Shown here: piece after piece, positions 38,440 through 61,041 of the stretch
Position numbering within the stretch: the stretch's first letter is position 1
How the letters are laid out: every line of letters begins with the position of its first letter
Assembly: GCA_015179025.1 (NCBI GenBank)
Contig: WHUX01000172.1
Coordinates: forward strand, 48,840 to 112,839
Length of the DNA: 64,000 nucleotides
Source of the DNA: Terfezia claveryi
Taxonomy: Eukaryota > Ascomycota > Pezizomycetes > Pezizales > Pezizaceae
Direction of reading: 5' to 3'
Program-made: the position numbers and the translations under genes
Notes under the pieces: generated by a model
The model's database searches: none
Seen by the model: the letters and a program-made list of their open reading frames with translations, nothing else
What the model was told of the DNA's origin: nothing

Positions 38440-38454
38440 TAGTATGCGCATCGG
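38440..38454 (+). repeat. hAT terminal inverted repeat, left
   Basis: TAGTATGCGCATCGG. hAT ends typically begin with (C/T)AGNG or similar, and this has TAGTA. Confidence 0.75.
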
Positions 38455-39399: not shown

Positions 39400-42303
39400 C
39401 TATAATAAACGGCGCTTCCGGATGCTTCGATGCCAAGTTGAAGGAGATGGTGTTGCTGCTTGCCCGCACAATAGACTTCGATGGAACGAGTTAGACATGC
39501 CTGAGGTAGAATCTTCCGTGAAACTATGCGATGGGTTGGCATTCTCAGACGCTAAATCTGCCAGGTCATTTAGGAGATACTCGTCCATTATCCGGCTCCC
39601 AGCTACTTCTATGTCACAATCTGTATCTGAATCCGTGTCCATCTGTCCCTGAAAGGTATCTAGGGACTGTGCTACCATGTGGCGGAGGAAGTCTGCATCA
39701 TAGCTGAGGGCTTGTTTCTCCAGCATTACCTTACCTTCATCTAAATCAGCTATGCCTTCTTCTACATGTGCTGGTCTAATTTGTGCCTCTGGGGTTCCAT
39801 ATTTCGCGTGTACAACATCCTACGATTTGGTCAACATCAGCGCAGTTATCATCTAGTGACCCATTCTATTGTGTTGATATGGCAAAATATCTCGAGTACT
39901 GCTGAATATTCACTCTACTAGGACAGATGTGAGTGGAATGCTCAATATGTCCCTCACCATTCGTACCAGCGTGGGATATTCATTAGCATGCACCTTCCAC
40001 CAGGATAGAGGGCATTTCTCATTCAGTGTTGTTATCGGATTTACCAAGTATCTCTTGATTTCTGGTACATCCTCCGATTAGCTTGTAGTACGCTCTTGTA
40101 GTCGATGCGTTATATAGGATTGTTCTCCATCATCCACTTGTATGTTATGAACCTGGGCTTCCAGTGTGTACTTGGCGTAATTATGTTCAAAATAATCTTC
40201 GAACTGAACCCTAAGAAGGGAATTTGGTAAGAATTATGTTTTTCTGTATATCATGGATAGTCTCCTGTCATGGAAAATAGTGTCACGGAAAATGGTGTTA
40301 TGGAAAATGGTGTCACAGAAAACACATGGGCCAAAATAGTCATGTGCTGATGGAATTCATACGTACTTGTAATACTCCGTGTATGAAATATAGTCCCCGT
40401 TCTACTGTATACCACTTGGATCTTGGACATTGAGATTTCCCCAGTCATTATACAAACATAATTTCTTAGACGGATCAAGGATGGTTGCAAGGTTGTAGAT
40501 AAGAGATTGTTTTTCGGTCCTAGAATAATACTTCTTGAAGATCTGCTGACATGCTTTTGTCGTGGAGAGAAACCCTGGAGCCTAGGTAGGATTAGCTAGA
40601 AGTTTGCGTATACATTTCCGCTGTTTTTCTATGTGGTCAAAGATGTCATTGTAGATAAAGAACGCATTCTGTATGGTTGTATGCTTCCCTGTAGAGATAG
40701 CATAAGTGTAATCCGATAAAGGTTTCAGGAAAATAGTAGCCTCCTGAACTTGGTTCCACTCTCCTTGACTCAACCATAACTCTGAGTACTTGCTCTCTGT
40801 CATAGATAGAGTGATCCATTGCTCAATGTAGCACTAGAGCCTCAATGCTCGAGTAAGCATTTCAAAGGTTGAGTTCCAGTGAGTTTTGATGTCCTGAATG
40901 AGCCCCATGGGTGCACGGGAATCAGTTTGGAGTTCCTTGAATTGTGTCAGGCATTGTGGGCTGGCTACTATAGCCTTACAGAGCTCTCGAAACTAGACAA
41001 ATGTTAGCAATAGGATTCCGTGACACGTATTAGCCTTTTATAACATGTCTGCCATTCCGTGACATCTTTATTGAGTAGCTTAGAAGATGACTTACTTTGC
41101 AAACAGATCCTGCGAATGTACCTGGAGCATAAATCTGCAGTGCTCTGATTGAAGACTCAATAGCAGAGGTGGACGAGACAGTATCATCATTATCTGGGTT
41201 CGACCTGAGTTCTTTCATAAACTGGTTGCTTACTAGCACAATCACATATGCGAGGCAGGGAAGTCGGTATTGCTGGGGGTCCCATTTAGCACTGAATACA
41301 TTGACTTGTAAATGCTTAGCCAATGCTGCATTGACACTTGCGTTGTCCGAAATGATGGCCAAGACTCGGTTCGAAATGCCATATTCCCGAATTAAATTCC
41401 CTAGCTGATTACCCAAGTGCATAGCATTATGAGCTTCCCCACCTAGGTACTGGAATCCAATCGTATGTTAGCACAGCTGCCAAACCTGGTCTATATAATG
41501 GAGTGTTGTGCCCATGAATGCTAACTTGTTTGGAGAAATCCAACAGTCTATAGCGAGGTGGAGGAATGTATCTTCTGGAAGGCTTTTTTGAAGCTTCTGT
41601 TAAACTTCAGTGGTATAGTGATGTATGCTCCAGCGAAGTGTTGTCGTACAGGAGATATTAATCTCAGATTTAAGAAATTTCAGGAGATGCTGGAACTGCA
41701 GATGTTCGATAGTTCGGAAAGGTAAGTTTACACCAATTACAGTTTTTATGAGTTCATGTTTGAAGCGATCATCACTAAATTGCAATTCGGGGGATTGTGC
41801 AACTGCAGGTGTTGTCTACTTATAATGTGAGCCTATACCCAATTATTGCAGGTAGGTACGAATTATATAATTACCTTCCCAAACAGGGTTGAAATGTCCT
41901 AATTCTTTCACCCACTAGCAGAGCGGCACCTGTCTGAGCTGAGATGAGTTCTCATATGTGTCGTACCCATATTAAAGGCACTAGGGTGTTGCAAGGTACC
42001 CTTGCAAGCTAAGCAAAATATGAATAGCTCACTGCTGTGAATCTTAGCTCCTTGTCCGAATTGGGCCCAGTGTGCTGCTGTTTGGAGCTTAGAATCCTAT
42101 CAGGGTAGGTTAATATTATTACTTTTTAGATCTTTAGCCAGATTGTCATGGAGCTTGCCTGCCCACATGGTCGTTTCCCACCATGCATCAAATGGTACAG
42201 ATTGTTTGGCTTCCCACTGGAAAGCTGTCCCACCTAATATTCTGGTGAGAGTGGAAACCATTGGGCTCGATTGACATATGGGCACACTTGGAGATAGAGA
42301 CAT
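39400..42303 (-). pseudogene. hAT-family transposase, decayed
   Basis: Cut-and-paste transposase of the element. Read 5' to 3' on the minus strand: a short N-terminal block (42303-42100), a BED-like finger with CLAC ... HMRTH (about 42025-41945), a block at 41785-41600, the RNase H-like core with AIISDNASVNAALAKHL and RLPCLAYVI (41422-41030), a helical block with FLKPLSDYTYAIS and QNAFFIYNDIFDHIE (40803-40582), and the C-terminal dimerisation domain with LSWWKVHANEYPTLVRMVRD, then IFSSTRDILPYQ (about 40065-39880). A Ser/Asp-rich extension of about 150 residues reaches 39400. Stops occur, for example VE-stop-IF where VERIF is expected (CGA to TGA). Some gaps may be introns. Probably inactive. 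Confidence 0.85.
40257..40325. repeat. TGTCACGGA cluster within the transposase region
   Basis: Four units spaced about 16 bp apart: TGTCATGGA, TGTCACGGA, TGTTATGGA, TGTCACAGA. The variants differ by transitions. Confidence 0.7.
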
Positions 42304-42429
42304 GTTTGAGTATGGGGCTAGTAGTGCAAGTTCGTCTGGCTATTGTGTTCCTGGGAGTTGGCGATAATAGATTTGGAAGGGCAGTAGGGAAGAGAGGCCT
42401 ATTTATTCACATTCTGAGAGCATTTGGAG

Positions 42430-42505
42430 TATGTTATGGATAACGTGTGCTTGTTACGGATAACGTGTGCTTGTTACGGATAACGTGTGCTTGTCACGGA
42501 TTCTA
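42430..42505. repeat. TGTCACGGA-type cluster between transposase and the next gene
   Basis: Three copies of a 21-bp unit, GTTACGGATAACGTGTGCTT, then TGTCACGGATTC. It lies between the transposase start and the end of the 42600-44880 gene. Confidence 0.75.
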
Positions 42506-42614
42506 TGGGAGACATTCACAAGGTACCTGCAGCGCTTTCCTTAATAACCCTAACCTATCTATACATAAAATATGTTTGTTAATCATGCCGTAGCATATCA
42601 ACAGCGCACCAAAC

Positions 42615-44880
42615 CTAATTCCAATCCAAGCGCACGATCGTCCATTCATTCCAAAATGGATCCACAATATCATCGTGGACATCATCTGAGTCCTCTGAGC
42701 TGTATGGTGAGAGCTCACTTCTAGGCTCAAAGTATCCATCTGGCTCTAATATATTGTCGGGGATATTGGTCAAATCTAGTTGGAGTATGCTGGATCTCAA
42801 TGGCCAATCAAGGCTGTCTGTGAGTTGCAAAATCTCGAGAGGTCTAGACATAATTAGCCTGCCGCGCTATCTATGTGCAAGGATTAGTAAAATACCTTCT
42901 TGAAGGCCGAAGCCAGACCTCTTGCCTACAATATAATACTGTTATCCTAGGTGGGGGATGCCATTGTACCGGTATATAGATAGGATGCCAAATGATTCTG
43001 CTGTCAGGGATCCGGTAGGTCTGGGAGAGTATCTACAATAGGTATGTTAGTACTCTAATGTTTTAACGCAACAATTAACTTACCGATGAGTATCGACAAT
43101 CTTCACATAAACCCCATGCCTCTCCCTCACCAGTCAGGTAATGGTAGAAAAGGGTAATCTACAACAAATCATACATAGTATAGTCATTTAGGTAAAAGGG
43201 ATCTCAAGTTGTCTCTAGACTCCTATGGATACCCAAGGGGAGCAGTAAATCATACTGATCAATCCAAATCCTCTCTAGAAGCTCCATGGCTACCACTCGG
43301 GATACAATCTTGTTGGGGTCAAATCGGTCCATAACCAACTATCTAGATAGGTGTGTCATCATTTCTGTTCCATGTAGACTAAGGAACCGTCGTAGCCCAG
43401 CAATGTCTCTCCACTGCTCCCGGAACTCTTCGAAACCGAGTTCATCTTCTGGATTGTAGTATACTGCCATATTTGTGTAGTAGTCTAGTTGGCACAATAC
43501 CCATTGTGAAGCTCATATGGTCAGTGAGAATTACAACCCTGATGAACTATATATAAGCAAAACTCCAGATGACAGTTCTGGAAAGAATCCCTAAATGGCA
43601 ATGTCCTCTTTTAGTAGGTTCTCTAGTTACATCTGATTCTGCCTTAGAATTAGTGGACAAAAGTAGACTACCGTACTCCGCAGGTAATACTAATTGTATA
43701 CGAAGGACCTGGCTTGCATTAGTCGTGGGAAAGACCTGCGTGACCCACCTGGGATACGGCAAAAGATCTATGACAACACATCCGTGACAAGACATCCGTG
43801 ACAAAATAAGCTATCCGTAACAACATAAAATATCTGTAACAAGAAAAAATATCTATGACCACATAAGTTTAGCACAAGCTACCCCACCCAAATGGAACTA
43901 CCATCCTAATCCACTCCAGCCTGGTATCGAACTGCCACCTTCGTCCATAATAGTACTGTATCTATGAAAGCGATGGGTTGATAGCATAATCTACAGTAAT
44001 TGACCGGTCAATAGGATAGACTGGTTATTGTCAACCTATGTAGTTGAGGTCAAGGCGTGCACTGATACACTTTGTTGTATACTATAAGAGTTAGTTTAGC
44101 TAGTAGAAGGTAGACTGGGTGAAGTGTTCTATCTGTCTCATATGATAACGGTCTATGCATCTTCTCAAAAGCATTATTAATCCTGATATAGTCTAGTCGT
44201 TCACATTCCATTGACCCATCAATTACTCTACTAGCAATAATGTCATTTATCATTTGCAGAGGTATAGGTAGTCTACTTGTATGAGCCTCCTTGTGAGGTA
44301 CAATGGGTCAAGGGGTCCAGGTCAAGCTAAGCCAGTTCCGAAACAGGTAACACATACTTAGGGATGTTTCAGGGAGTAACCAGAGATATTTTGGGGCAGT
44401 AGCTTGGGCCAGGGTCTGCTGGGGCCAGATAAATTCCGCATGTCCCTACCTCCTACCACTCGATTAACTTCCATCCTCCATTATTTGCATCTCCCTAGCC
44501 TTTTGTCATTCCATATCAAGCCACCTCCTATCCTTTATTACTATACCACAAGAGAGTATGCCAGGTAATTCGACTATCAGGCAAAGAGGTGAAATTCCAG
44601 GGTTAAGGTATAACTTCCATACTTTTTTACTTGCCCCATATGATATTGTGTACATGTCCCATGTTATTTGAGTAAGTGCGATAGCCATGTGGGCTTGTCC
44701 CATTTTGCGTGGTTCTACTGAACAGGTGACGATAATCATTATTTTCCTGTTACCTTGAGCAGGTCATGTTTGAAGCGCGTGGAAAATACACGTGCTACAA
44801 GGTCATGTGGTTCCTCCTGCTAGAAACTGATCTACGGTGAGGAACAGGAAAAGGACGTATAGCGGTATTGTATGGTAACT
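42615..44880 (-). pseudogene. Unidentified hAT cargo gene 1 (minus strand), decayed
   Basis: A protein-like reading runs through much of the minus strand here with scattered stops. Blocks, 5' to 3': EPHDLVARVFSTRFKHDLLK (about 44815-44758), a probable small intron, then KMGQAHMAIALTQITWDMYT (about 44700), QMINDIIASRVIDGSMECER (44253), VLPAEYGSLLLSTNSKAESD (about 43690), ELGFEEFREQWRDIAGLRRF (about 43440) with DPNKIVSRVVAMELLERIWI, and an acidic C-terminal block at 42851-42615 (SPYSSEDSDDVHDDIVDPFW). Several stops are explained by C-to-T or G-to-A. I do not recognise a family. Whether it is a transposon accessory protein or a captured host gene is open. Confidence 0.5.
43779..43860. repeat. 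TCCGTGACA cluster
   Basis: Copies ATCCGTGACAAGAC, ATCCGTGACAAAAT, ATCCGTAACAACAT, ATCTGTAACAAGAA and ATCTATGACCACAT, about 17-20 bp apart, in the opposite orientation to the 40257 cluster. They lie inside or beside cargo gene 1, possibly in an intron. Confidence 0.7.
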
Positions 44881-44988
44881 CACACTTGATTTGACACGGT
44901 ATTACCGGCTTGCAGCTAATTCCTTTTCACCCAAACTTCTAGTGGTTATCAAACCCGATACCGAGTGCGAAATCAGTTACGTTGTCTA

Positions 44989-45522
44989 ATGGTAGAGGTG
45001 CCAGCCACCCCTAGTGAAGCCGAAACTGAAGGAGATAATGAGAGGGGGGTTTTGCAGGAACTAGTGGTGGAGATGCAGGAGGACAATCCTAAGCCAGGAG
45101 TTGAAAACAAAGAGAATGAGAACCCTCTCTTTGTTAGTCCAAGTTCCAGGCAATCCCCATACTCGCCATTTGAACATTCCCAACCTGAACAACCTTCCCT
45201 GTCATTTGACCCCCCCCTGTTATTAACTCAAGAAGGGCAAGGTGGTCTCAAGAGCGGTCATCCCGGCGATGCCATGTTTGTAAACAAAAGCGATGGCAAA
45301 GGCAGCAGGAAGCAGGAGTCATGGAGGAGGTCGCTGTGGGGGGAAGTCTTACTATTGACATTGGGCCAGGCTCTTCTGATTTTTATTTTGGCCCGATATC
45401 ATTCCATGTTAACCAAAATTAAACCACCAATATATTCATGCGTAGACTTGACTGCAGGTAAAATTCACAATGATGGGTACACGCATCGTGGTGATGCTAG
45501 TCACGTGCCCGTGTTCGGTTAA
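44989..45522 (+). CDS. hAT cargo ORF 2: small predicted membrane protein
   Basis: Frame open upstream to 44965; the first ATG is at 44989, giving 177 residues. An acidic, Pro/Ser-rich N-terminal region contains ENKENENPLF. One predicted transmembrane helix (GEVLLLTLGQALLIFILARY) lies about 50 residues before the C-terminus. No family recognised. It is transcribed away from cargo gene 1, so the region 44880-44990 could be a shared promoter. No stops interrupt the frame, unlike its neighbours. Confidence 0.45.
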   Translation: MVEVPATPSEAETEGDNERGVLQELVVEMQEDNPKPGVENKENENPLFVSPSSRQSPYSPFEHSQPEQPSLSFDPPLLLTQEGQGGLKSGHPGDAMFVNKSDGKGSRKQESWRRSLWGEVLLLTLGQALLIFILARYHSMLTKIKPPIYSCVDLTAGKIHNDGYTHRGDASHVPVFG

Positions 45523-45972
45523 TAGCATTCAGGTTTGCTTGTAAACAAAGAATGAATTCCTTTATTTGCATGAACAGAGGTTTTTGGTAGTCATCTTCCA
45601 TTTATCTGTAAATTCCAAGGAATCGTCAGCGCTTTAATGGTGATTTCTATCTATATAATCTATAGTGAAGATAACGAAGGGGTATGTGTTCCAAAGCCAT
45701 GTCACAGATGCTGTCACAGAGGATGTCACAGAGGCTGTGACGGAGGTCGTGTCCAGAAATTTGAAGTTGAATGATAGTTAGCTTATTCACTGACTATCAT
45801 TTATCTCAATCACTGACATTCCCGTCTAAATAACTAGCAGAACCAAGACATATGTTTTGCAAAATCGTGTCATGGAGGTTGTCATAGAGGTGTCACGGAG
45901 GTCATGTCAAGGGAACGAGGTTGAGCCCAAAGTGGAAAAACTACTGACGAAGTTTGTGTTTAAGTATTCACA
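45523..45972. repeat. Intergenic spacer with TGTCACGGA-type clusters
   Basis: Two clusters, at 45695-45755 and 45868-45922, with units ATGTCACAGATGC, CTGTCACAGAGG, ATGTCACAGAGG, TGTGACGGAGG, GTCATGGAGG and TGTCACGGAGG. No gene is seen between the two flanking ORFs. Confidence 0.7.
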
Positions 45973-46389
45973 ATGCCAAACCGTCCTGAGAAGAAAAAGA
46001 CAACTGGTAAAGTGCCAACTAGCCCGGCACTAGAACCTCCAATGCAGAAAAAAAGAAAGACAACCCTAGGAGTGCCAGCCAGCCCGGTTGCAAAGACACC
46101 GACAACTCGCACAGAGCATGTTCCCAAAAAAAGGAAGACAAGAGCAGAATTAGCTCAGCCAATTGAGGATGTTCCAAGAAGAAGGACAAGAGCCGAACTA
46201 GCCCTCATTCCACCCCCAGTTGAGAATGTTCCAACAAGAAGCATGCCAAGAGTGGAACTTGCCGAGGATGTTCTAAAGAATCTTTATGCCAAATACGCTG
46301 ACTTCCCATAAGGCTCTCGAGAGTTTAATCCAGACACAGAATTTAGTGGGGGGAGGAAGGCATGGGGCACCTCCACTAATCTCTATATA
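45973..46389 (+). pseudogene. hAT cargo gene 3, 5' part: basic nuclear-type protein
   Basis: An ATG opens 112 codons with repeated basic motifs (PMQKKRKTTLGVP, HVPKKRKTRAELA, DVPRRRTRAELA) that resemble nuclear localisation signals. A TAA at 46309, probably from CAA, interrupts it. The same frame continues to 46389, where gypsy-2B is inserted. Joining position 46384 to 52581 restores one reading frame across the insertion, so the 52581-53670 region is the 3' part. Confidence 0.6.
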
Positions 46390-46900
46390 TAAGACGTGGG
46401 CTCTGGGGACAAGGCGACCAAGAGGTACGCCGGGGAGAAGGCAGGGACTAGGGCAAGACACACATAGGAACACTACGTGTGTGACTAGGGGAAGGCTGGG
46501 ACGGGGAGGCAAGGGCAAGAGGCAAGAGGGGTAGAGGGCAAGGGGCACGAGACACGCGGAGGCAGTTGCCGTGTGTATCGGAGGGGGGCAGCTGTACTGC
46601 AGAGTTATTCACGGGACAAGGCAAGACGAGGGGGTGTACAAGGGAGGTATACCTTCACGGAGAGGCAAGGTCCTGTATTCGGTATACAAGACATTGGATA
46701 GGGATCCAACGACAGTACGAGAGATAGGGGCTATATATATTCATGATTCCAGGCCAAGGCAAAGAAAGGAATAAGCTTCCCGAGATCCCTATCTCAGGAG
46801 CCAAACAGGATAGCAATAACCTATCACCTGCGCCGCAGGTGATAAGCTATCACCTGAGTCGCAGGTGATGACAAGGACAACTAAGCATGCAGTTGTAATA
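46390..46900 (-). repeat. gypsy-2B 3' LTR
   Basis: Aligned to the 52070-52580 LTR by its ends: TAAGACGTGGGCTC here and TGTGATGTGGGCTC there, and TATTACAACTGC against TGTCACAACTGC on the minus strand. The complement of the polypurine tract (CTATCCCCCCTTTAG) follows at 46901. Confidence 0.88.
46822..46870. repeat. Two TATCACCTG palindromes in the gypsy-2B 3' LTR
   Basis: 46822-46844 is a perfect 23-bp palindrome: arm TATCACCTGCG, centre C, arm CGCAGGTGATA. 46848-46870 is a close variant. They occupy the place in the LTR where copy A has the GAGAGTC hairpin. Confidence 0.85.
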
Positions 46901-47027
46901 CTATCCCCCCTTTAGGGTAGAGCTCCAGTGATAAGGAGGCTTAGGGCATGACAACCGGCAAAATCAATACAAGAAACAACAACAAGTGCAAGAACGAGAA
47001 CCCTAACTCCAAACAACAACAAAGACC

Positions 47028-47050
47028 TATCACCTGCATCGCAGGCGATA
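47028..47050. repeat. Internal TATCACCTG palindrome of gypsy-2B
   Basis: TATCACCTGCA, T, CGCAGGCGATA, flanked by CAA-rich sequence, about 130 bases inside the 3' LTR. Copy C has the GAGAGTC hairpin at the matching place (61241). Confidence 0.8.
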
Positions 47051-47099
47051 ACGGAGACAACAACAATAAGAACAAGGACAAGAACCCCAACTTAAACAT

Positions 47100-48720
47100 G
47101 GGGAGATCACTCAACTGGATGGGGCTTCCTCAGGTATTGCTGATGGAACAGGGAGACAAATCCTGTGCATTCTCCAAGTCCTCAGCGAGTTGCCAAGTAG
47201 TCTCCTCATCCCCTAACCATTTAACCTTGTATTGCAGATGACCATACCTCTTCCTTGAGTCCAATACCTCTTCGACCTCCCACTCCTCTTCACCCTAGAT
47301 CACTACAGGAGGGGAAGAGAGGTATTTCTGCCCTGGGAGGGGTCATCCGCAGCGGGCTAGATCTCGGAGACATGAACAACCGAGTGCCGTTTGATATCTT
47401 TGGGAAACCTCAATCGATAGGCATGAGTTCCCACAGCTGCCAATACCTCAAAGGGTCCCAGGAATTTATGATCCAGCTTGCGGGAGGGGTGTTCTGTTCG
47501 GAAGTGCCGGGTGGAAAGCCATACTTTGTCTCCTGGCTGATATTTAGGGGCTGGCAACCGTGATCCATTAGCATACTCAGCTTGCCGGGCTTGTGCATAT
47601 CCCAGCTCAGCTTTCTGGGTATGCTAGAGTTCAGCGATTCCAACCACGAACTCCTTAGATGGGGGGTGGGCTTTTTGCAGGGGCGCCAGGACATCCACGA
47701 ACCGGGAGTGCCAACCATAATTAGGCAGGAAAGGGGAGGTTTTGGAGGATTCCGAGAACTGGTTGTTCATAGCAAATTCGCAGGTTGCCAGCAACGAAAC
47801 CCAGTTATCCTGCTGGTAATTGACAAAGACCCGCAGATATTGCTTCATAATGGCATTCATCCTCTCCGATTGGCCGTCCGTCTGGAGGTGATATGCCATT
47901 GATAGATGTGCTTTGATCCCCAGAAGTTCCCAGAAGGCTTGCCAGAATTCTGAGGTAAACTGAGGGCCATGGTCAGATACGATCGATTCAGGGAGGCCAT
48001 GGTATCGGAATATATTATTGAGGTAAAGATTAGCTAACTCTGGGGTAGAGCAGGTATCCCGGCAAGGTATAGCATACCTCATTTTCATCAACCGATCCAC
48101 TACTATCAAGATGGCATTGAACCTCAAATCTTCTGGCAACCCTATTACGAAGTCTATAGTCAGGTGCAGCCACAGCCGATCAGGGATATCCAGAGGTTTC
48201 AGGGTCCCATACGGGGCGTGGCGGACAGGCTTAGCACGTTTGCAAACGTGGCAGTTCCGTATGTACCGCTCCATATCCTTCCGTTGGTCGATCTATATGT
48301 ACTCCCTAGCCAGAAGCTCTAACGTTTTGGCCACTCCAAGGTGACCTGCAACCAGGCTGTCATGGTGTTCCTTGATTAATCAAAGGCGCAGCTCTCCTTC
48401 CGGCACATACAGCCATTCGAGGTAGTAGAAGAGGCCTTCCTGGACAGTACACTCAGCTAGGGAGATCTTGAGGTGGCGGCGCTGGCCAGAATCCACTGCA
48501 GCGATAATTCCCTTAGTCAGGGGGTCATCCTCATATACCCGTCTCACCAGTTGTCGGAGGTCGGCTTCCATGGCAGCCTCGGCTTCCACATTAGCCTCAG
48601 CATCAGTAAGGACATTGGCCGCCAGATCAAGGTTTTCGGGCTTCAATACCACCTGATTTTGATATTTTAGCCTTTCATCCCTCTCCTTAGGGAGATCTCC
48701 TAATCTTCAGGTTAGCATAT
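47100..48720 (-). pseudogene. gypsy-2B integrase with chromodomain remnant
   Basis: Integrase core frame at 47624-48274: YIRNCHVCKRAKPVRHAPYG, HLTIDFVIGLP, SIVSDHGPQFTSEFW, NAIMKQYLRVFVNYQ. The C-terminal part is at 47357-47557 (HKFLGPFEVLAAVGTHAYRL). Chromodomain sequence lies further on, about 47280-47120, and is interrupted. The linker and zinc finger His pair lie at 48652-48290. Confidence 0.85.
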
Positions 48721-48796
48721 CTGGCTTGCCACCAGCTTTCCCAGGATGGTACTTGATCTTAAAGTTGAACCGAGAGAGAAATTCTGACCACCTGGC

Positions 48797-49465
48797 CTAC
48801 CGTCGGTTGAGCAGCTTGGTGGTGGTAAAGTACTCAAGGTTTTTATGGTCGGAAAGTACTTCGATAATTCCCTTGACTGACTCCAGGTGTGGCCTCCATT
48901 CCTCGAATGCTTGTACAATGGCCATCAGCTCCTTGTCATAGATCTCGTAGTTGCACTCAGCTGGGGAATGCTTCTTTGAGAAATAGGCTACTGGGTGGAG
49001 GACTCCATCAACATACTGGAATAGGATTCTGGCGGAGACATAGTCAGAGGCGTCCGTTTCCATGATGCACTCGCTATCGGGGTCAAAATAGGCCAGGATT
49101 AGGGCTGAGCAGAAGGCTTCCTTGAGGTTTTGGAAGGCGGATTGGGCTTCTGGATTCTAGTGGAAGGCCCTTTTTGTCAAGTATGAGCCAGCTTCTACCT
49201 TCGTTTTCATCAAGGCCGTCAGAGGTGCTGCGATTCTTGAGTATACCAGGATAAATTAGTGGTAGAAGTTGGCAAATCCTAGGAAGGCTTGCACATCCTT
49301 CAAATTGGCTGGGGTTTCCCACTCTTAGATTGCAGCAACTTTGGCGGGGTCTACCCTAATACCTTCTGTAGTTATGATCAAGCCCAGGTACTTCACTTCT
49401 TGGACGTGGAATTCGCATTTTTCAGGCTTAAGGTACAGCCCAGCCTGCTTCAGCTTCTCCAAGAC
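48797..49465 (-). pseudogene. gypsy-2B RNase H and RT palm/thumb
   Basis: RNase H at 48797-49063 ([35 protein letters not shown]). RT connection at 49083-49465 in broken frames. At 48800-48815 a stop replaces one codon of the LLNRRQARW stretch. Confidence 0.82.
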
Positions 49466-50863
49466 TTACCTGATATGGATTTTGTGCTCTGCCAGAGTAT
49501 TTGAATAGATCAAGATATCGTCAATGTAAGCTATGCAGAACACATCCAGGAAGTCTCGTAGAGTGTCATTAATAAAGTGTTGGAAAGAGGCCGGGGTATT
49601 GGTTAAGCCGAAGGGCATGATGTTGTACTCGAAGTAGCTATAACGTGTATGGAAGGCAGTTTTCCACTCCTCCCCCTCAGCGATCCGTACCAGGTTGTAC
49701 GCTCCTCTCAAGTCCAATTTGGTGAACCATTTTGCCTTGGAAAGCCTGGCTAATGTCTCTTGGATTAGAGGTAGGGGGTACCTGTTTTTGACCATTATCT
49801 CGTTCAGGCTATGATAATCAACACACAACCAAAGAGAGCTATCCAATTTCTTCATGAACAGTACAGGAGCACCAGCTGGGGAAGAGCTGTGCCGAATGAA
49901 GCTTTTATTCAAGTTCTCCTCCAGGTACTTCTTCAGGGCCTCCAATTCCACTCGGGACATTCCGTAAAGGGGCCCATAGGGGGGGGTCTTACCCTCTACT
50001 AGCAGAATTGTGTGGTCATATGGTCGGTGGAATGCTAGCTTCTCCGCAGCTTTTTCCGAGAACAGATCAATGAACTTGTGATATTTATCCAGGACCATGG
50101 CCTTCCACTCCTCCTTAGGCCACATCTTATTGATTTCCAGGTTTACCTCATGTATAGACAGGGCATGAGCCTTCAGCTTGTGCCTCCTGGTGAGGTAAGC
50201 GAAAGCCCCTGCCCTGATAAAGCTAACGTTGAGGGACTTTGGGGTCACCAGGGGGATAGAGGGGACAGGGGAAATAGGGGGAACAGGGGAAACAGGGGGA
50301 ACAGGGGGAACAGGGGTAAACGAGGAGTGGGCAGCATTGATGTACACGGGCTGGTATACCACTTGGGCTGGGTGGATTATCGGGGGTGGTAATGCGCATA
50401 GCCTCGTGATGGTGATTTTTGGACCTCCACAGTTTTTTCTGCAATAATAGCTGTTGAATTGCAAGGTGTATGAGCCGAAGCTGACTGACACATTATGCAT
50501 TCTGAGCCAGAAGATCCCAAGCACAATTGGATATTTTAGTTTGGTCACAAATATTGGGAGGTCCTCCGAATGGACTCCAATGGCACTGAGCAGACACGCG
50601 AGGTCAATAATAGCCCCAGAAGAGATGGGGCAGCCATCAATGACGTCGAGAAGGCGGGGGGTCTTTAACTTTGAGATTGGTATGGAATTTTTACTAACGA
50701 AGGCCTGATCAATGAATGCAATTCCCGAAGCACCACAATCAATGAGAGCTGATGTTACCACTGTTTTACCATTGAATTTAATAGTTATTGGTACTATAAA
50801 ATGCTCGCTAAACAAGCGAGATTCATCAACAGACATAAGTGCAGGCAAAGAAAATGCAGACAA
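49466..50863 (-). CDS. gypsy-2B protease and reverse transcriptase
   Basis: A 465-codon open frame. The protease motif is ALIDCGASGIAFIDQAF near residue 40, followed by a Pro/Val linker (SPVPPISPVPSIPLVTP). RT blocks are [40 protein letters not shown] and AYIDDILIYSN, so the catalytic Asp pair is intact. This is the best preserved PR-RT of the family within the window. The upstream gag and downstream RNase H are broken, so it is not a working element. Confidence 0.88.
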   Translation of the reverse strand: MSAFSLPALMSVDESRLFSEHFIVPITIKFNGKTVVTSALIDCGASGIAFIDQAFVSKNSIPISKLKTPRLLDVIDGCPISSGAIIDLACLLSAIGVHSEDLPIFVTKLKYPIVLGIFWLRMHNVSVSFGSYTLQFNSYYCRKNCGGPKITITRLCALPPPIIHPAQVVYQPVYINAAHSSFTPVPPVPPVSPVPPISPVPSIPLVTPKSLNVSFIRAGAFAYLTRRHKLKAHALSIHEVNLEINKMWPKEEWKAMVLDKYHKFIDLFSEKAAEKLAFHRPYDHTILLVEGKTPPYGPLYGMSRVELEALKKYLEENLNKSFIRHSSSPAGAPVLFMKKLDSSLWLCVDYHSLNEIMVKNRYPLPLIQETLARLSKAKWFTKLDLRGAYNLVRIAEGEEWKTAFHTRYSYFEYNIMPFGLTNTPASFQHFINDTLRDFLDVFCIAYIDDILIYSNTLAEHKIHIR

Positions 50864-50904
50864 AGATAAATAGCCCTATGCAGGTCCCTTGCTAGTGTCA
50901 GTAA

Positions 50905-52069
50905 CTAGGCAAGAGACAGGGCTTTTCCTAACTCATCAACCTCCTTGATCCTGGATTCGGAGATGGCGTGTGCGGCCATCGAGCAGTTTTTGCGGAGGGG
51001 ACATGCCGCGATAAAATGGTCCCCTTTTCCATATGCTATGCATAGCCCGTTCATCCGGCGGCGATCTCTCTCCTTCTGGGTTAACTGTAGCCTACCTGCG
51101 GATAGGTCCATGGGGGCAGCCTCACCCACTACCAAGGAGTGGTACACAGGCTTGTTGACTGGTGTGAGTTGTTGTTGTTAGGTGCGTGCTGTCAGGAATG
51201 GTGTACGGGGAGTCGAGGTTGGGAGTGTTTTTTGGAGGGCTCTGAGTGCCGCTGTCTAATGTTCCACTCAGCTAGCTTGTTCAATAAGTTCCTCCAGAGT
51301 TTTGGTCGGTAGACAGTAAACCAGAGCCTTTTTCAGCTCGAAGGTAAGCCCGTCTTTGAACTAATCGAGCTTGGCTTTGTCATTCCAATTGAGCTCTGCT
51401 GCTAGCCTGGAGAACCCAGCGACATAGGCTGACAGTTCATTGTGTTTTTGCTTGAGGTCTCGCAGGGCTCTGCTAGCAGTTCCTTTAGGGTCAGGGTCCC
51501 CGAAGGCTCAGTCCAGGATTGCCATTAGTGCCGGGATATCTACCAGATCAATTCCCGTTGCCTTGATGAAGGGCTATACCTGGTCCATAGCTTTACCCTC
51601 TAGTAGACCATAGACGTATGAGAGCTGGTGGTGAACCGTGGGGAACTTTGCCGAGTCCCCAGAGAGTTTTATTTGCACAGAGTTTTTCTATGCTTGTAAT
51701 CGGCCCCGGTCCCCATTAAACTTGGGTGTGGTTGGTAGGTCTTGTGTTTTCGGGTTCTTTGGACCATTGGCCAGGTCTAAAGCGTGAGTCAATCTCCAAA
51801 TGGTTATCCTGTCCTCTGCTGCATCTTCTCGGAGGAGGGTTATTTCATCTTCGACTTCTCAGATTCGCCTTTCGGCTTTCTGGAGGTCCGCTCCTTGTTG
51901 TTCACCAATGGTATAAGTATCTGTGAAGATCTCGATTACAGTTCATCGATATGTTGATAGTTCTACTGGGTCTGATAGGATAGGAGTCGCCCTCCAGGCT
52001 GCGAATCTATCGGTAGGTAGTATAATGTTCGCGGACATCATACCGGTTGGTCTGAAAGATCCAACGTAG
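50905..52069 (-). pseudogene. gypsy-2B gag remnant
   Basis: Nucleocapsid part at 50905-51147 with LCIAYGKGDHFIAACPLR, where the second Cys of the knuckle has become Tyr. Capsid sequence lies at 51270-51700 in broken frames. Confidence 0.78.
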
Positions 52070-52580
52070 TGTGATGTGGGCTCTAGGGACAAGGTGACCA
52101 AGAGGTATGCTAGGGAGAAGGCAGGGGCTAGGGCAAGACACATGTAGGAACGCTACATGTGTGACTAGGGGAAGGCTGGGACAGGGGGGCAAGGGCAAGA
52201 GGCAAGAGGGGCAGAGAGCAAGGGGCAGGAGACACGCGGAGGCAGTTGCCACGTGTGTCGGAGGGGGGCAGCTGTGCTGCAGAGTTATTCATAGGACAAG
52301 GTAAGACGAGGGGGTGTACAAGGGAGGTATACCTTCACGGAGAGGCAAGGTCCTATATTTGGTATACAAGACATTGGATGGGGATCCAACAACAGTATGA
52401 AGGACAGGGGCTACATATATACATGATTCCGGGCCAAGGCAATGAAAGGAATAAGCTTCCCGAGATCCCTATCTTAGAAGTCAAGCAGGATAGCAATAAC
52501 CTATCACCTGCGTCACAGGTGATAAGCCATTACCTGTGTCGCAGGTGATGACAAGGACAACTAAGCACGCAGTTGTGACA
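52070..52580 (-). repeat. gypsy-2B 5' LTR
   Basis: On the minus strand it starts TGTCACAACTGC. Two TATCACCTG palindromes lie at 52502-52524 and 52528-52550. A stem-loop ACACATGTAGG...CTACATGTGT is at about 52137-52161. Confidence 0.88.
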
Positions 52581-53670
52581 ATACGAAAAAAATTCGAGAA
52601 ACATACAAGAAACTACTTGGACCCCCGCTATCGTGGGAGTGAGCTAAGGACTGGAAAAGGCAAAAGGTAAATGGGGTGCTCAAAGCAGGGATTAAGGAGG
52701 CCGAACACGCCACTACTACTGGAAGGGCAATAGGCACCTGAAGGGCCTCGTTAACTGATATGGAATAAGGCAACTTTGAACAACTGGTTCAAAGGACTTG
52801 CGACCTAATGTTTATCTGCAAAAAGGCATATATTTTGTACCAGTGGCATCAGCTATCCAACGAGCAGAAGCGAGTCTATTTAGAATTACAGGAGCAAGAA
52901 GAGCTCCCCGAATTCAAAATTCCCAATGCTAAGTTGGAAGCAATAGGGGTAAAGCCAGTACAGCAATTCGCAGTAGTCATTAGCATTGTACCAATCAACT
53001 ACTAAGCCTATGCCCAATTTGATGAGCCAACCGAATGTGACATAGTGTCTGGGCATGGGACTAGTGATACAGGGCCCAACACACCACTAGCAATTGATAG
53101 CAGGATGCAGACTATATAAGAGGAGTTGGCTGAGGGGGGTGCCGACGATTGCTTAAGTAATGAGGATATTGGGATGGATATTGAAGAGGTAGATGTTTTC
53201 TCGTGCTTGATCTAAATCTGAGAACTTTACTCACAAGTAGATAGGACTATGATGACAAATCCAACAAGCAAGATAATAACGAAGATATAGGACTATGGGG
53301 CCGATGGGTAGCTTCAGAGGGTTCTTCAGAAGAAGAAGCTCAATCAACTGAATCTGACTCCAGCAAACAGGGAAAGGCATTGTCAGTACCTAGCGGAGAT
53401 AGGCCTGCTGAATTGCTTTCAAGCGACACCGAAGATGGGGACTATAGGGATTCCACCAAGGAGAACGATTGCAAAGTCAATGAATGAGTATATCAGCGGA
53501 TTTTACATCAAGGTACTGCAATGATAACAAGCGACAACAATAAAGATGACAAAGGCGAGAAGCAAGTCGCAGGCGATGATGGGGGGAAAGATGAGCCAGC
53601 AGATGAGAATGAGGGTGGGTATGATGATGAAGGTGACAATTACAGTGAGGATGGGGAAGAAGCAAACTAG
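52581..53670 (+). pseudogene. hAT cargo gene 3, 3' part
   Basis: The frame continues from 46384 across the gypsy-2B insertion: RETYKKLLGPPLSWE, DWKRQKVNGVLKAGIKEAEH, then at 52808-53005 AYILYQWHQLSNEQKRVYLE. The pattern W-x2-LS-xx-xK-x2-Y resembles the C-terminal half of an HMG box, but the N-terminal half is not evident. Acidic segments follow near 53254-53487 (EGSSEEEAQSTESDSSKQGK) and 53521-53670 (DDEGDNYSEDGEEAN), perhaps as further exons. Stops near 52741, 52762, 53003 and 53117 mark decay; most fit C-to-T changes. Confidence 0.5.
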
Positions 53671-54349
53671 GGAGGAGAATGGGAACTAATTTGAATTTCT
53701 TTTTAGTGTCACAGATGGAAAACATGTCACAGATGGAAAACTTATCACAGATGGAAATCATATCATGGATGGAGAACTTGTCACGGATGCTGTGAATGGT
53801 CGTTCGTTAATAATTTTCTGAGGTTTAATTGTATCTACTACTTTTGTATTTGATTGTGTATTTTATTGTATCTTTGCTTGTATGTTTGTTGGATGACTAC
53901 AGCCTAAAGCAAGGGGTATTTCGTTTTGGTGTTATTTTTGGATGTCTACGGTGTATGTAAGAGATATTTTCTTTGTGCATTTTTTTGATGTCAACTGAGT
54001 ACGCTAGGGGGTATTTGTTTTAGAATTATGTATATCTCTATAGGGTATTTTCCTTGTATGTTTTTTTTGATATAAACAGGCTAATGTGGCGTAATACTAA
54101 GGTAACGTTTTTTTGTAACTCCCTTTGTTATGAGTGAGCTAACAGATAAGGATACAAATAAACAATGAATTATACTTTGTTATAGAGCTCAATGCTTGAG
54201 ATCAGTCTATTTTTCGTCCACTTCGTGCCCTCAGGAACATATATATACAAGCAAACTTACTATCCAAAACCTCAGATCCTTCGATTTGCAACCTTCAGTC
54301 AGTGTGGATATTACACTTACTCTTTTGTACCCCTGAATACACAGATATA
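53671..54349. other. Spacer before the histone-like gene
   Basis: Holds a TGTCACAGA cluster (53703-53793; units TGTCACAGATGGAAAAC, TATCACAGATGGAAATC, TGTCACGGATGC) and T-rich sequence. A TATA-like ACATATATATACAA is at 54238-54251, about 105 bases before the histone-like ATG. No other gene is seen. Confidence 0.6.
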
Positions 54350-55210
54350 ATGGCTGGAACAAAACAACGAGCTAGGAATGTCAAGACGATAGTACCCCCT
54401 ACGAGAGTACCTACAGTGGTCCCAAAAAAGAGAGGGGTACTCCCCAAAAAGAAAAGGGTACTCCCTAAAAAGAAAAGAGTAGTCCCACGAAAGAGAAGGG
54501 TAGATCGGCGTAACAACTCCCCCCAGTTCAATTTGAACTTGGAATGCTAAGTTTGTTGTCAGTGGCAATTATTAGACAAATTCGGAGACAACAGGCCAGC
54601 AGTCAATTAATCATTCCAAAGACTGTGTTCCGACGGTTATGTCGAGAGATCATACAGGATGTTAACACTCAATACAACAGTTATCCTACGATACTCTGTG
54701 GGCGGACAAATGTGGAGAGAATTGGCATCATAGCAACAAATGCCCTCTAAGAGGCTACGGAGGCATACCTCCATAAATTTTTGACAAGTAATAAAGCATA
54801 TATCGTAAGAAGGTCAGGGTGAGACTAACCAGGTGTATGAAATAGCAATCAACCTGTATGCAATACAGAGTGGAGACCGAAAACCATCACGCCAAATAAT
54901 TCTATGGAGGAATGTAGTATTGTGGCATCAGGTGGAAGCCAATCGGCTATGTGGGGGTAATGTGACCTACTGCCCTACACCCCAAGCACTACTAGTACTA
55001 CCATCACCCTCATTATCCACCTCATCATCCTCCTCATTATCCTCCTCATCATCACCGTCATTACTATCATTACCCTCATCATCATTATCATCAGAATCAT
55101 CGTCTTCACTATCACCATCAGTTTCACCGTCGACTAGATCACGGGCATCAGTTGGTGCCCCGCCATCTCCTGCAACTCCTCCTTCGCCAGCATTAGTTGG
55201 TACCCCATGA
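54350..55210 (+). pseudogene. Histone H3-like gene (divergent, possibly CenH3-type) inside the hAT element
   Basis: I read three exons: 54350-54509, 54563-54787, and from 54846. The introns are 53 and 58 bp, GT..AG; the second has GACTAAC 18 bases before its end. The N-terminus is MAGTKQRAR, close to the H3 start MARTKQTAR, followed by a basic tail with PKKKRV repeats. The Lys at position 4 of H3 keeps its context; the position-9 Lys is Asn. The fold region reads IRQIRRQQASSQLIIPK, then VFRRLCREIIQDV (alpha-N, alpha-1), a loop about 14 residues longer than in H3, then ALQEATEAYLHKFLT and INLYAIQ (alpha-2), then RQIILWRN (alpha-3). The Q of ALQEA is now TAA (54748). The frame stays open to 55210 as a Ser-rich extension, which may not be real. 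Length to the end of alpha-3 is about 150 residues. No other histone is seen nearby. Confidence 0.72.
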
Positions 55211-55341
55211 TCTCCTACAACACCTCCTTCACCAGTACCACTTACACCTTCAGCATGACCTACACTGCTGGCATTGCCTACATTGTCATTGCGTTCTGAC
55301 GATGTATGGGGAATGGAAGGAAGAGGCCAGGAGTAGGGCAT
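54967..55341 (-). other. Minus-strand acidic frame opposite the Ser-rich extension
   Basis: A 124-codon frame rich in Asp, Glu and Gly (DGDSEDDDSDDNDDEGNDSN). It arises from TCATCA-type simple sequence at 55010-55130 and mirrors the Ser-rich plus-strand frame. At most one of the two is real, and I cannot decide which. Confidence 0.3.
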
Positions 55342-55596
55342 TTGACTTTTTCTATAGGGTTCTTTTTTTGGGTTGTGTTATGTATTTGGGAGATAAATAT
55401 CTTATGATCAGCTCCGTTTTTTTTTTTTTTTTTTTTTTTTAGGTTATATAAAGTTGTGATGGTAGGAAATAGAATGTTAGGAGAGCTCATAATCTGGGTG
55501 AAACATAATTTGCCAGAATAGACAATTCTGTAACAACTTGAGGCAATTCCGTGACGACTATGGGACAGTGAGAAATGGCAACGATTCCATAACTAC
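55342..55596. other. Non-coding spacer with a long T run
   Basis: Contains 24 consecutive T at 55417-55440 and the motif copies TTCTGTAACAAC and TTCCGTGACGAC near 55525-55560. Confidence 0.6.
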
Positions 55597-55926
55597 AGAT
55601 CCGTCCTCCTGTTATGGATCCGTCCTCCTGTCACGGATCCATCCTCCTGTCACAGATCCGTCCTCCTGCCACGGATCCATCCTCCTGTCACAGATTGCCC
55701 CACCTGTCATGGATTTCTCCTTCTATTACTGACTTGAACTTTTCCTTCCTGCTCAATCCTTACCACCATTTCTCAACTGCGTTCTACTAGTGGCTAACCT
55801 TCCGTCCATTCCCCCGTCGTTCTCCTGTGTAATCTTACCCTGCCTTGCGTGCTAATGTGAATTACATTCATTGATACCTCATCAATTTCTGCACACTTTG
55901 ATTCTCATAAAACGAATCTTTTTAAT
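55597..55926 (+). repeat. Subterminal direct repeat, right copy
   Basis: Matches 38659-38952 in the same orientation, with more 19-bp GGATCCGTCCTCCTGTCAC units at its start. Confidence 0.8.
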
Positions 55927-56162
55927 CCAAGCAATCCGTAGTATGTTCAGTTAAATTTAAACCGAATTATATGAGAAACTGGTCCTCCAGTCGAGCAATA
56001 TATGTCAGTAGATGACACTAAGGCTTGGCGAGTAGTCGACGGCTACTTGGCACTGCCCCGAGTAATTCAGAGCAACATATAGCCGACTGGCCGAGTTGGA
56101 GGCTTGGGCAAAACTCGGCCGTCGGCGTGAGTCTTGGTGAGGCAGCACAGGGAAAAATCGCC

Positions 56163-56177
56163 TCGGTGTGTACACTA
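56163..56177 (-). repeat. hAT terminal inverted repeat, right
   Basis: TCGGTGTGTACACTA, the complement of TAGTGTACACACCGA. It is followed directly by the TSD copy GCTGCACT and by resumed integrase sequence. Confidence 0.78.
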
Positions 56178-57240
56178 GCTGCACTTGACTATGGACTTCG
56201 TAACAGGGTTGCCGGAAGATTCAGGGTTTAATACCATCTTAATAGTGGTGGATCAGTTGATGAAAATGAGGCATATTATACCTTGCTGGGATACCTGCTC
56301 TGCCCCAGAGTTAGCCAATCTCTACCTCAATAATATATTCTGATACCATGGCCTCCCTGAATCGATTGTATCTGACCGTAGCCCCCAGTTTACCTCAGAA
56401 TTCTGGCAAGCCTTCTGTGAACTTTTGGGAATCAAAGCACGTCTGTCCACAGCATATCACCTCCAGACGGATGGCCAATCAGAGAGGATGAATGCTATTA
56501 TGAAGCAATATCTGCGGGCCTTTGTCAATTACCAGCAGGATAACTGGGTTTCGTTGCTGGCCACCTACAAATTTGCTGCAAACAACTAGTTCTCGGAATT
56601 CTCCAAAACCTCGCCTTTCCTGGCTAACTACGGTTGGCACCCCCGGTTCATGGATGCCCTGGTGCCTCTGCGAAAAGCCAAAAAAGATGCCCCGGCCAAG
56701 GAGTTCGCGGTTGGAATCACTGAACTCCACCATACCCTGAAAGCTGAGCTGGGATATACACAAGCCAGGCAAGCTGAGTATGCCAATGGATCACAGCTGC
56801 CAGCCCCCAGACACCAGCCAGGAGACAGGGTGTGGCTCTCCAGCTAGCACTTCCGAACAGAACGCCCCTCCCACAAGCTGGATCATAAGTTCCTGGGCCC
56901 CTTTGAGTTATTGGCAGCTGTGGGAACTCACGCCTATCGATTGAGGTTTCCCAAAGACATCAAACGGCACCCAGTTGTTTATCTCTCCAAGATTGAGCCC
57001 ACTGTAGATGACCCTCTCCCAGGACAGAAACACCCCCCACCCTCTTTAGTGGTTATCGAAGGTGAGCAGGAATGGGAGGTGGAGGAGGTACTAGACTTGC
57101 GGAAGAGATATAGGCTTTTGTAGTATAAGGTTAAATGGTTGGGGGATAAAGAGTCAACCTGGCAACCTGCCGAAGATCTGGAAAATACACAGGACTTGGT
57201 TGCCCTGTTCCACCAACATTACCCCCGGAAGCCCCACCCT
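56178..57240 (+). pseudogene. gypsy-2A integrase core and chromodomain
   Basis: The integrase resumes at LHLTMDFV-equivalent sequence: FNTILIVVDQLMKMRHIIPC-like block, ESIVSDRSPQFTSEFW, ERMNAIMKQYLRAFVNYQ. The C-terminal part is at 56650-57123 (RLRFPKDIKRHPVVYLSKIE). The chromodomain reads WEVEEVLDLRKRYRLL, stop, YKVKWLGDKESTWQPAEDLE. Such a domain directs chromovirus integration to modified chromatin. Stops at 56341, 56587, 56845 and 57121 interrupt the frame. Confidence 0.88.
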
Positions 57241-57424
57241 GCCCCAAGATGTTCTTATCATCCTGAAATTGGTTATTAGGGTTGTTATTGTCGTAGTTAT
57301 TATTGGTACGTACTCCTGGCATTGGAGACGTGTTATGGGTTATTAGTTACTTGTCCGCCTTGTTTGTTTGTTTGTTTTTGCCTTGTCTTTTTGCCTTACT
57401 TTTCATCGATGGGGCTCCGAGCCT

Positions 57425-57437
57425 AAAGGGGGGATAG
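57425..57437 (+). other. gypsy-2A polypurine tract
   Basis: AAAGGGGGGATAG immediately before the LTR start TGTCACAACC. The complement is present next to the 3' LTRs of copies B and C. Confidence 0.88.
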
Positions 57438-57951
57438 TGTCACAACCGTCCTTTCATACCCAGGTTTGAGAGTCAGACGGGATTCCGTCCGACTCTCGTT
57501 ATTGTTGATTGATATTATTGTTATCTCTGTTTCCGAGATAAGGGGTCTTGGGAACCTTATTCCTTCTAGTGGCATTGGCCAGGAAGGAAGCCTGTATATA
57601 TAGCTTGCTCTCTCTGCCCTCTCGTTGGATCCCCATCCAATGTCTTATATATCCAATATAGGGCTTTGCTTCTCTCTCCGTTGGTGAATCTCCCTTATGC
57701 ACCTCCTTGTCTCACCTCGACTCTGCAGCCCTGCTGCCCACCCCGCGAACCTCCTGTCCTTGCCTTGCCTTGCCTGGCCTCTGCAGCCCTGCTGCCTCCT
57801 ACTACTCCTGTGTGCCTTTTTTGCCCTCACTCTTGCCCCTGTCCTAGCCTTTCCCCAGATCATACACCTAGCGCTCCTACATGTGCGATTCCCCCTTGCC
57901 ACTGCCCCGGCGTACCTCTTGGTCGCCTTGTCCCCCAGAGCCCTCGTTACA
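57438..57951 (+). repeat. gypsy-2A 3' LTR
   Basis: TGTCACAACCG ... CCTCGTTACA, with canonical TG..CA ends. TATA-like CTGTATATATAGC near 57592. Confidence 0.92.
57467..57498 (+). repeat. 32-nt hairpin, gypsy-2A 3' LTR
   Basis: TGAGAGTC, AG, AC, loop GGGATTCC, GT, CC, GACTCTCG. One loop change and one closing-pair change from the 5' LTR copy. Confidence 0.85.
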
Positions 57952-59587: not shown

Positions 59588-60537
59588 CTAAGAGATTAAT
59601 AATTCGGAATATACAATATTGCTTGTAGTAATAGGAGAGATAGAACTTTGTAGTATGGCAAGATTAGTTACATTAGTAACTCGTAACATAGCAACATAAA
59701 ACTGACCATGTGTAAATGCAGAAGTACGTAAATCTAATCCAACAATACCTAATGTTTGCCCTTGCGCCTTGTTAACCGTCATAGTAAAATAGAGCTTAAT
59801 AGAAAACTGCTTTCGACTTAAAATAAATGGAAGCTCACCCTCTGTAGTGGCTAATAAGATGCGGGGAATTAGTTTTCTTTTGCTATGAAAATCTTCACCT
59901 AGAATTTGAACCTCAATACATCGATATCTAAGTCGAGTAACAATCATGCATGTTCTATTACAAAGACCTTCTGTAGGGTAAAGATTTCGTAACAACATAA
60001 CTGGACATCCAACTTTTAGAGTAAGCTGAGATGGAGTTAATCCACTACAGTTTAAACTTTGTAAATATTCCGCAGGATATTGAGCAAAATTAGGATTTTC
60101 TTCATTTGCATCAGAAGTATTGATTGCATGAAAAGTTTGACTTTGACCCGGTAGTTTGTCTAAGATGGAAGTGTTGAATTGATTGACTGTATCGTTATGA
60201 AATGCTAAAATGCATCGATTAGTAAAAGCTGTTAGATCAGATACAGCAGTAGATAAGACATTAGAAGGATATACAAAATTAATAAGATCTTCTGGTTGGG
60301 TATAAGCTTGAATATAAGATGGTAAAGAAATAGTACCAGTAAGTGTAGAATCATATGAAATATCTTTTAGCCAAGATACAAAAGAAATATTATCAGTACC
60401 AGACTGAACTCGCATATTTAAAGTAAGATGTAAAATATGAAAATTTGACCAAAGAAAAGAACTTTGTAAAGATGCATAAATGGTTGAGGCACGATTACCA
60501 CGAAGTACAATAGGAGCTATTTGTGCAAAATCACCAC
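59588..60537 (-). pseudogene. Helitron-type Pif1 helicase, C-terminal part
   Basis: An open minus-strand frame cut at its 5' side by gypsy-2C at the GDFAQI (helicase motif II/III) codons. Later motifs are visible: GCPVMLLRNLYPTEGLCN, LYFTMTVNKAQGQTLGIVGL and HGQFYVAMLRVTN. This arrangement belongs to Pif1-like helicases at the C-terminus of Helitron RepHel proteins. The upstream part should lie beyond the right window edge. The sequence has no stop within about 316 codons, so it was recently active or is under weak decay. Confidence 0.85.
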
Positions 60538-60705
60538 TGTAATGAGGGCTCTGGGGGACAAGGCGACCAAGGGGTACGCCGGGGAAGTGGCAAGGGGTAA
60601 TCGCACACGTAGGAGCGCTACGTGTGTGATCGGGGGAAAGGCTAGGGTAAGACACACGTAGGAACGCTACGTGTATGACCAGGGGAAGACTGAGACGGGG
60701 GCAAG

Positions 60706-60770
60706 GGCAAGAGGCAAGAGGCAAGAGGCAAGAGGCAAGAGGCAAGAGGCAAGAGGCAAGAGGCAAGAGA
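60706..60770. repeat. (GGCAAGA)n microsatellite in the gypsy-2C LTR
   Basis: About nine head-to-tail 7-bp units. Copies A and B have only one or two. It causes an apparent open frame encoding PLASCLL repeats on the minus strand. Confidence 0.9.
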
Positions 60771-61041
60771 CATGAGACACGCGGAGGCAGTTGCCGCGTG
60801 TGTCAAGGGAGGCAGCTGTACTGCAGAGTTGTTTGTTCGAGACAAGGATGTGCACAAGGGAGGTGCACAAGCGCTGGGGGGAAGCAAGGTCCTGTATTGG
60901 GTATACAAGACGTTGGATGGGGATCCAACGAGAGGGCGGAGGGACGAAGATATATATACATGATTCCAGGCCAAGGCCGTGGAAGGAATAAGCTTCCCGA
61001 GATTCCTATCTCGGAAGCTAAGATAACAATCACCCATCGAC

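Follow-up and report, generated by a model that had tools for sequence, protein, structure and literature searches.

The window analyzed here, a 64,000-nucleotide stretch of the Terfezia claveryi genome (contig WHUX01000172.1, positions 48,840 to 112,839), contains a histone H3-like gene, hereafter H3L, carried inside a hAT transposon. Comparison of its copies indicates that H3L very probably resides, under selection, in an old hAT lineage of desert truffles that carries several genes. As an explanation of the whole, we favor, with a probability of roughly 0.55, a resident H3L that would give the element a chromatin resistant to silencing marks, with the product of the companion gene ORF2 acting as a putative chaperone. 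The features of the locus are collected in Table 1; subfamilies of the element are named F1 to F5 for convenience.

Table 1. Features of the H3L gene, its carrier element and the nested insertion, in window coordinates.
Feature	Position	Strand	Basis or remark
Target-site duplication, left, gctgcacc	38432-38439	.	Within gypsy integrase sequence; read directly
hAT element, left part, inverted repeat TAGTATGCGCATCGG at left end	38440-46387	.	93% identical to the C355:1412-12971 element, positions 1-8006
hAT transposase gene, decayed	39322-42339	-	tblastn of C355 copy; window copy with stops
Transposase pieces	39322-39954 (dimerisation domain); 40360-40989; 41036-41815 (DUF659-like region); 41866-42096; 42012-42339	-	
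ORF3, conserved gene (pieces 42582-42866 and 43078-43530)	42582-43530	-	Comparison with other subfamilies
ORF1, weakly conserved gene, VEVPATPSEA motif	44920-45419	+	37% identical in F4
ORF2, first piece, broken off by gypsy element	46159-46380	+	
Nested gypsy LTR retrotransposon inside hAT ORF2, boundaries approximate	46388-52580	-	Gap in element match, direct repeat, pol ORFs
ORF2, second piece, acidic C-terminal part (52580-53212 and 53245-53667)	52580-53667	+	Homologues in Terfezia boudieri
hAT element, right part; end GTACACTA, complement of TAGTGTAC	52581-56177	.	92% identical to C355 element 8004-11560
H3L exon 1, basic tail	54350-54509	+	Read from sequence
H3L intron 1, 53 bp, GTAACA..TGTCAG	54510-54562	+	Position shared with F2 (62 bp) and F4 (69 bp)
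H3L exon 2: alpha-N, alpha-1, long loop 1, alpha-2	54563-54787	+	Read from sequence
Premature stop codon TAA in window H3L copy	54748-54750	+	Read from sequence
H3L intron 2, 58 bp, GTAATA..AAATAG	54788-54845	+	Position shared with F2 (64 bp) and F4 (77 bp)
H3L exon 3: loop 2, alpha-3, then Ser-rich tail, reading frame uncertain	54846-55210	+	Sequence
Target-site duplication, right, gctgcact	56178-56185	.	Read directly

The gene structure given in the preliminary description, made from the letters of the window, largely held on re-reading. H3L starts with MAGTKQRAR, its two short introns restore the frame on both sides, and the alpha-N, alpha-1, alpha-2 and alpha-3 blocks of H3 are all present in the described order, with loop 1 between helices 1 and 2 longer by about 14 residues; the tail of the window copy lacks the lysine at position 9, as had been claimed. 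The block described as ALQEATEAYL had to be corrected, since the window reads AL*EATEAYL, the asterisk being the in-frame TAA that interrupts the gene. The window copy is dead, a decayed relic. Other copies, e.g., L011 and L012, carry CAA at the site of this stop, and the C-terminal tail of H3L varies among copies.

Judged by sequence comparison, H3L is a histone H3-like gene beyond chance similarity. The Pfam check that the preliminary description had proposed for the spliced translation gave matches to the Histone family (PF00125) above the curated cut-off for spliced copies from three subfamilies: the F1 single copy L012 on contig C253 (E 3.5e-11), the F2 copy C32, entered with one stop written as X (E 2e-9), and the F4 copy C773 (E 1.7e-11). 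Spliced H3L matched a histone H3 chain in the PDB at 1e-10, and the best PDB matches listed were H3 chains. A search of NCBIfam, a collection made for prokaryotes, returned no match. The structure model of exon 2 places the helices in the right order at a pLDDT of only 62.8; Foldseek with this weak model found nothing significant, its best match (E 4.7) being a nucleosome entry. Membership of H3L in nucleosomes is likely from its fold. An Rfam search of the whole window at gathering thresholds found nothing.

The carrier of H3L is a DNA transposon of the hAT superfamily. The element ends read TAGTATGCGCATCGG and the complement of TAGTGTACACACC, and left ends and complementary right ends share TAGTRTGCGC-like inverted repeats; short terminal inverted repeats starting with TAGTG or similar are typical of hAT elements. 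The target-site duplication of the window copy spans 8 bp with one C/T difference. Among the 11 copies with both ends read, the duplication was exact in five (C25, C179, C149, C11 and C56), showed one C/T difference in three (the window copy on C82, C165 and C21) and did not match in three (C171, C355 and C23). The hAT dimerisation domain (PF05699, Dimer_Tnp_hAT) was detected above cut-off in transposase pieces from C355 (E 2.6e-9) and from F4 on C21 (E 8.6e-21), while the DUF659 and hAT-like RNase-H matches of the transposase fell below it. The terminal inverted repeats, the 8-bp target duplications and the dimerisation domain together therefore identify the element as a hAT transposon.

The placement of the gene between hAT inverted repeats, as originally described, stands with its inverted repeats and 8-bp duplication, while the element itself extends much further left, from 38440 to 56177, because a minus-strand gypsy element sits inside it. 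An uninterrupted copy on contig C355 measures 11,560 bp and aligns to both hAT parts in the window; the 6.2 kb between these halves are the gypsy element with its LTR-like repeats, among them a 300-nt direct repeat at 46393/52073. The insertions are nested twice, the hAT element lying within a gypsy integrase gene (38360-38439 / 56186-57450) and the second gypsy within the hAT ORF2.

Several further observations concern the ends and surroundings of the element. About 300 bp near its left end (38681-38954) are directly repeated near the right end (55616-55926), with 92–93% identity in the C355 comparison. The first ~513 bases of the left end are present alone at C155, C98, C172, C93, C8, C20 and C30, perhaps representing a related or shortened element family. 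Over about 9.9 kb, another contig (L010, C701:171500-181400) is 97% identical to the window; the match takes in the hAT right end, the flank on that side and some of the nested gypsy, which suggests that the segment is duplicated or that a haplotype was assembled separately. On the minus strand at 59588-60802, the window also holds a 404-residue ORF, the end of which resembles a helicase of the PIF1 type and may derive from a Helitron.

A search of the host genome with H3L exon 2 returned 106 rows, among which 28 extend over the full length (1-77) and lack a stop. With fragments within 2 kb merged and the host H3 match on C153 left out, these reduce to about 99 loci spread over many contigs; the exon-2 query missed the F5 gene of C27, which is counted outside the 99. 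ORF2 was located 1–4 kb upstream on the same strand at 59 or more of the 99 loci, and in any other arrangement within 4 kb at two. The transposase was found 5–16 kb upstream on the other strand at no fewer than 38 loci, and both genes were in place at 33 at least; all these counts are lower bounds, given contig ends, insertions and the omission of some fragment rows and of the weakest matches. The question posed by the preliminary description, whether homologues also lie in hAT elements, can be answered positively for the window, C21 and six other copies, where terminal inverted repeats and 8-bp duplications enclose H3L.

The full F4 element on C21 is 12,574 bp long, with terminal inverted repeats and the duplication aggacttc/aggacttt, and shares with F1 the order of five genes: transposase, ORF3, ORF1, ORF2 and H3L. 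The second ORF3 piece is 52–81% identical in stretches of F4, and both pieces have 37–38% matches in F5. Compared with F1, F5 (C27) retains transposase pieces at 39–52% identity (42% for the piece with the DUF659 region) and ORF2 at 33%; its H3L is much changed and still matches Pfam Histone at E 5e-6. An acidic ORF follows ORF2 in F5, and an ORF3-like gene at 2946-3537 (+) of this locus (L066) lies on the opposite strand relative to F1 and F4. The ORF2 protein combines a basic N-terminal part with an acidic tail. A protein search with it retrieved 25 proteins, five of them from Terfezia boudieri, with up to 92% identity over 57%; no Pfam family was matched above cut-off, nothing better than E 2.8 was found among PDB sequences, and the structure model is poor (pLDDT 51). 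Comparison of the subfamilies thus shows H3L to be co-inherited with the transposase and its companion ORF2.

Codon comparison also shows purifying selection on H3L between subfamilies. Between F1 and F2, dN/dS was 0.139 for the fold (NG86, 107 codons) and 0.191 for the whole protein, values which, like all dN/dS given here, were obtained by NG86 on partly decayed copies. Exon-2 differences between the two subfamilies number 13, 7 and 33 at the first, second and third codon positions, respectively. Between F1 and F4, pN was 0.285 against a saturated pS of 0.81 for H3L, and ORF2 behaved alike (pN 0.289, pS 0.802). The companion genes gave dN/dS values of 0.07–0.24 (transposase exons), 0.13 (ORF3) and 0.42 (ORF1), and F1–F3, with a badly decayed F3 copy, gave 0.41. 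The introns are not clearly more diverged than the exon between F1 and F2 (46/53 and 43/58 identical positions versus 172/225 in exon 2); the argument for selection is therefore drawn from codon positions alone. Position and phase of both introns coincide among F1, F2 and F4, and the introns of the host H3 gene on C153, as read from its sequence, lie elsewhere.

Most copies are in decay. In F1, a stop codon precedes the end of the fold in 17 of the 20 copies, the remaining three being L011, L012 and L013, the last of which has no intron 1 donor; all six F2 copies carry stops. In a comparison of 19 F1 copies over about 1.7 kb each, from which L027 was dropped as its contig ends early, 1099 of the 1352 differences from the majority were C-to-T or G-to-A. 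Per-site rates were highest at CpG (353/2061), followed by CpA (463/4325), CpC (139/3864) and CpT (64/3464). The transition pattern of F1 looks like RIP or methyl-cytosine decay, and decay of this type fits the change of CAA to the TAA stop in the window copy.

The H3L tail may bear on a function in chromatin. It begins with MARTKQ, including lysine 4, in five of six F2 copies, one of six F3 copies and the F4 copies C773 and C712, with MVRTKQ in the F4 copy C21, and with MAGTKQ in most F1 copies. Canonical H3 has ARKS at lysines 9 and 27. No ARK was found in the first 80 residues of 33 rows from F1 to F3; ARKS was absent both from these rows, read from tail to fold, and from the F4 readings. 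F4 does have a lysine at position 9 by count, although ARKS does not surround it; lysine 9 is thus not missing everywhere, and the argument for resistance to silencing is weakened. The fold has a long loop 1, and loop 2 is longer in F1, F2 and F4.

From these features we hypothesize that H3L, paired with host H4, is incorporated into nucleosomes; that it forms nucleosomes at all is probable. The ORF2 protein, by virtue of its acidic tail, would help H3L into nucleosomes in the manner of a histone chaperone. Chromatin built with H3L would then be open to methylation at lysine 4 and closed to the silencing marks of lysines 9 and 27, and copies of the element might thereby stay transcribed and accessible. 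That the benefit to the element is an escape from silencing marks is the more tentative part of this proposal, and we hold it with less than even confidence.

Several other readings have to be weighed against this one, beginning with the relation of H3L to the histones of its host. Over the fold, H3L from three subfamilies is identical to host H3 at 39/98, 41/99 and 34/97 positions and to host CENP-A at 37/97, 41/98 and 38/96, i.e., about 35–42% identical to both alike. Host CENP-A was assigned in this analysis, its best PDB match being the centromeric cnp1 (E 4.4e-45), ahead of H3 chains. In the tree, from which P0003 was dropped as too short, H3L folds and their environmental homologues form a clade of their own with a support of 0.997. 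The initial hint at a centromeric H3 is not borne out by these results, and centromeric H3 identity was rejected on the distances and the tree. A centromeric H3 carried by the transposon to direct or recruit centromeres could draw on the longer loop 1 of host CENP-A, a long loop 1 being known in CenH3; we nevertheless consider it very improbable, as H3L is equally far from host H3 and CENP-A, falls into a separate clade, keeps an H3-like start of the tail and occupies about 99 loci spread over many contigs. In a search of the host genome, a single strong H3 gene of canonical type was seen (L044, C153:8200-9500); its tail has before GVKKPHR an unusual stretch (IKQQFQQAAHKVARKVAHTSNSG in one frame), which is unlike the canonical H3 tail.

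A simple recent capture of host H3 was likewise discarded in view of selection, intron positions and fold identity. The broader possibility that the hAT element accidentally captured a host H3 transcript and amplified it as a transduplicated passenger, functionless for the element, is the published interpretation of similar elements in Pyrenophora and Pseudocercospora and would suit the broken state of most F1 copies. It appears improbable in Terfezia given the purifying selection between subfamilies, the identity to host H3 of only 34/97 to 41/99 over the fold, two introns where the host gene has none, and a linkage to transposase and ORF2 that still holds in F5. Hardly credible is a host H3 variant family that merely lies near hAT elements: 40 of the 99 loci have no ORF2 1–4 kb upstream by the criteria used, part of which may be due to contig ends, truncation and nested insertions, but the enclosure of H3L by inverted repeats and target duplications contradicts this reading for the copies tested. 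More weight, although still on the unlikely side, is due to a selected gene with another job, structural or inhibitory, e.g., as part of the transposition complex or as a poison of host nucleosomes, with the chromatin of the element left unmarked. With its long loop 1, changed loop 2 and lengthened C-terminus, H3L could interfere with a canonical nucleosome, and selection and co-inheritance fit such a role equally well; the MARTKQ start seen in F2, F3 and F4 would, however, be unneeded for a purely structural role, even though F1 mostly has MAGTKQ. We therefore retain as the best explanation a resident H3L that would shape the chromatin of its own element.

If the transposon keeps H3L under selection, it would plainly exemplify a mobile element that acts on the chromatin of its host through a nucleosome component of its own. 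H3 transduplication, so far a curiosity, would become a testable question, namely whether selfish elements build their own chromatin against silencing, and the copies with uninterrupted exons together with the conserved companion protein offer concrete test objects. Compared with earlier work, three things are new: the taxon, evidence that a multi-gene hAT lineage carries H3L as its own gene and under selection, and a conserved companion protein with an acidic tail; no publication on hAT elements with H3 cargo in Pezizomycetes was found among the best-ranked literature matches.

Among known histones, CenH3/CENP-A resembles H3L in its H3 fold, longer loop 1 and divergent tail; it differs in that H3L is no nearer to host CENP-A than to host H3 and has a tail that starts like that of H3. 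Among known transposons, fungal hAT elements with such cargo have been described, contrary to what the preliminary description had supposed. Manning et al. 2013 (PMC3538342) report a hAT element of Pyrenophora tritici-repentis with a transposase, a central ORF and H3L, present in many copies and with ESTs for H3L, which the authors interpret as transduplication. As described there, this element is about 5.6 kb long with nearly identical copies, whereas the Terfezia elements measure 11.6 and 12.6 kb. According to Dhillon et al. 2019 (PMC6710886), the Pyrenophora H3L groups closest to true H3, whereas the Terfezia H3L forms its own clade.

Dhillon et al. 2019 (PMC6710886) document hAT-borne H3-like sequences in six Mycosphaerellaceae genomes, likewise called transduplication. 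The hAT of Pseudocercospora fijiensis and its relatives, about 9.5 kb long, shares with that of Terfezia the DUF659 and 8-bp target duplications, and its H3-like copies, in the hundreds there, also decay by transitions. One form in P. fijiensis has a 16-residue insertion, and its H3-like proteins cluster apart from host H3, as in Terfezia. The capture in Pseudocercospora is reported in that text as intron-less with all copies inactivated, whereas Terfezia has introns, uninterrupted coding exons and visible selection. In contrast to the published transduplication reading, we argue from the sequence comparisons that H3L, in Terfezia at least, is an inherited and selected part of the element. A wider speculation, which we regard as rather unlikely, is that there is an old Pezizomycotina hAT lineage with a private H3 variant and an acidic chaperone, ORF2, forming nucleosomes unable to bear lysine-9 and lysine-27 marks, of which the 'captures' of Dothideomycetes would be decayed members.
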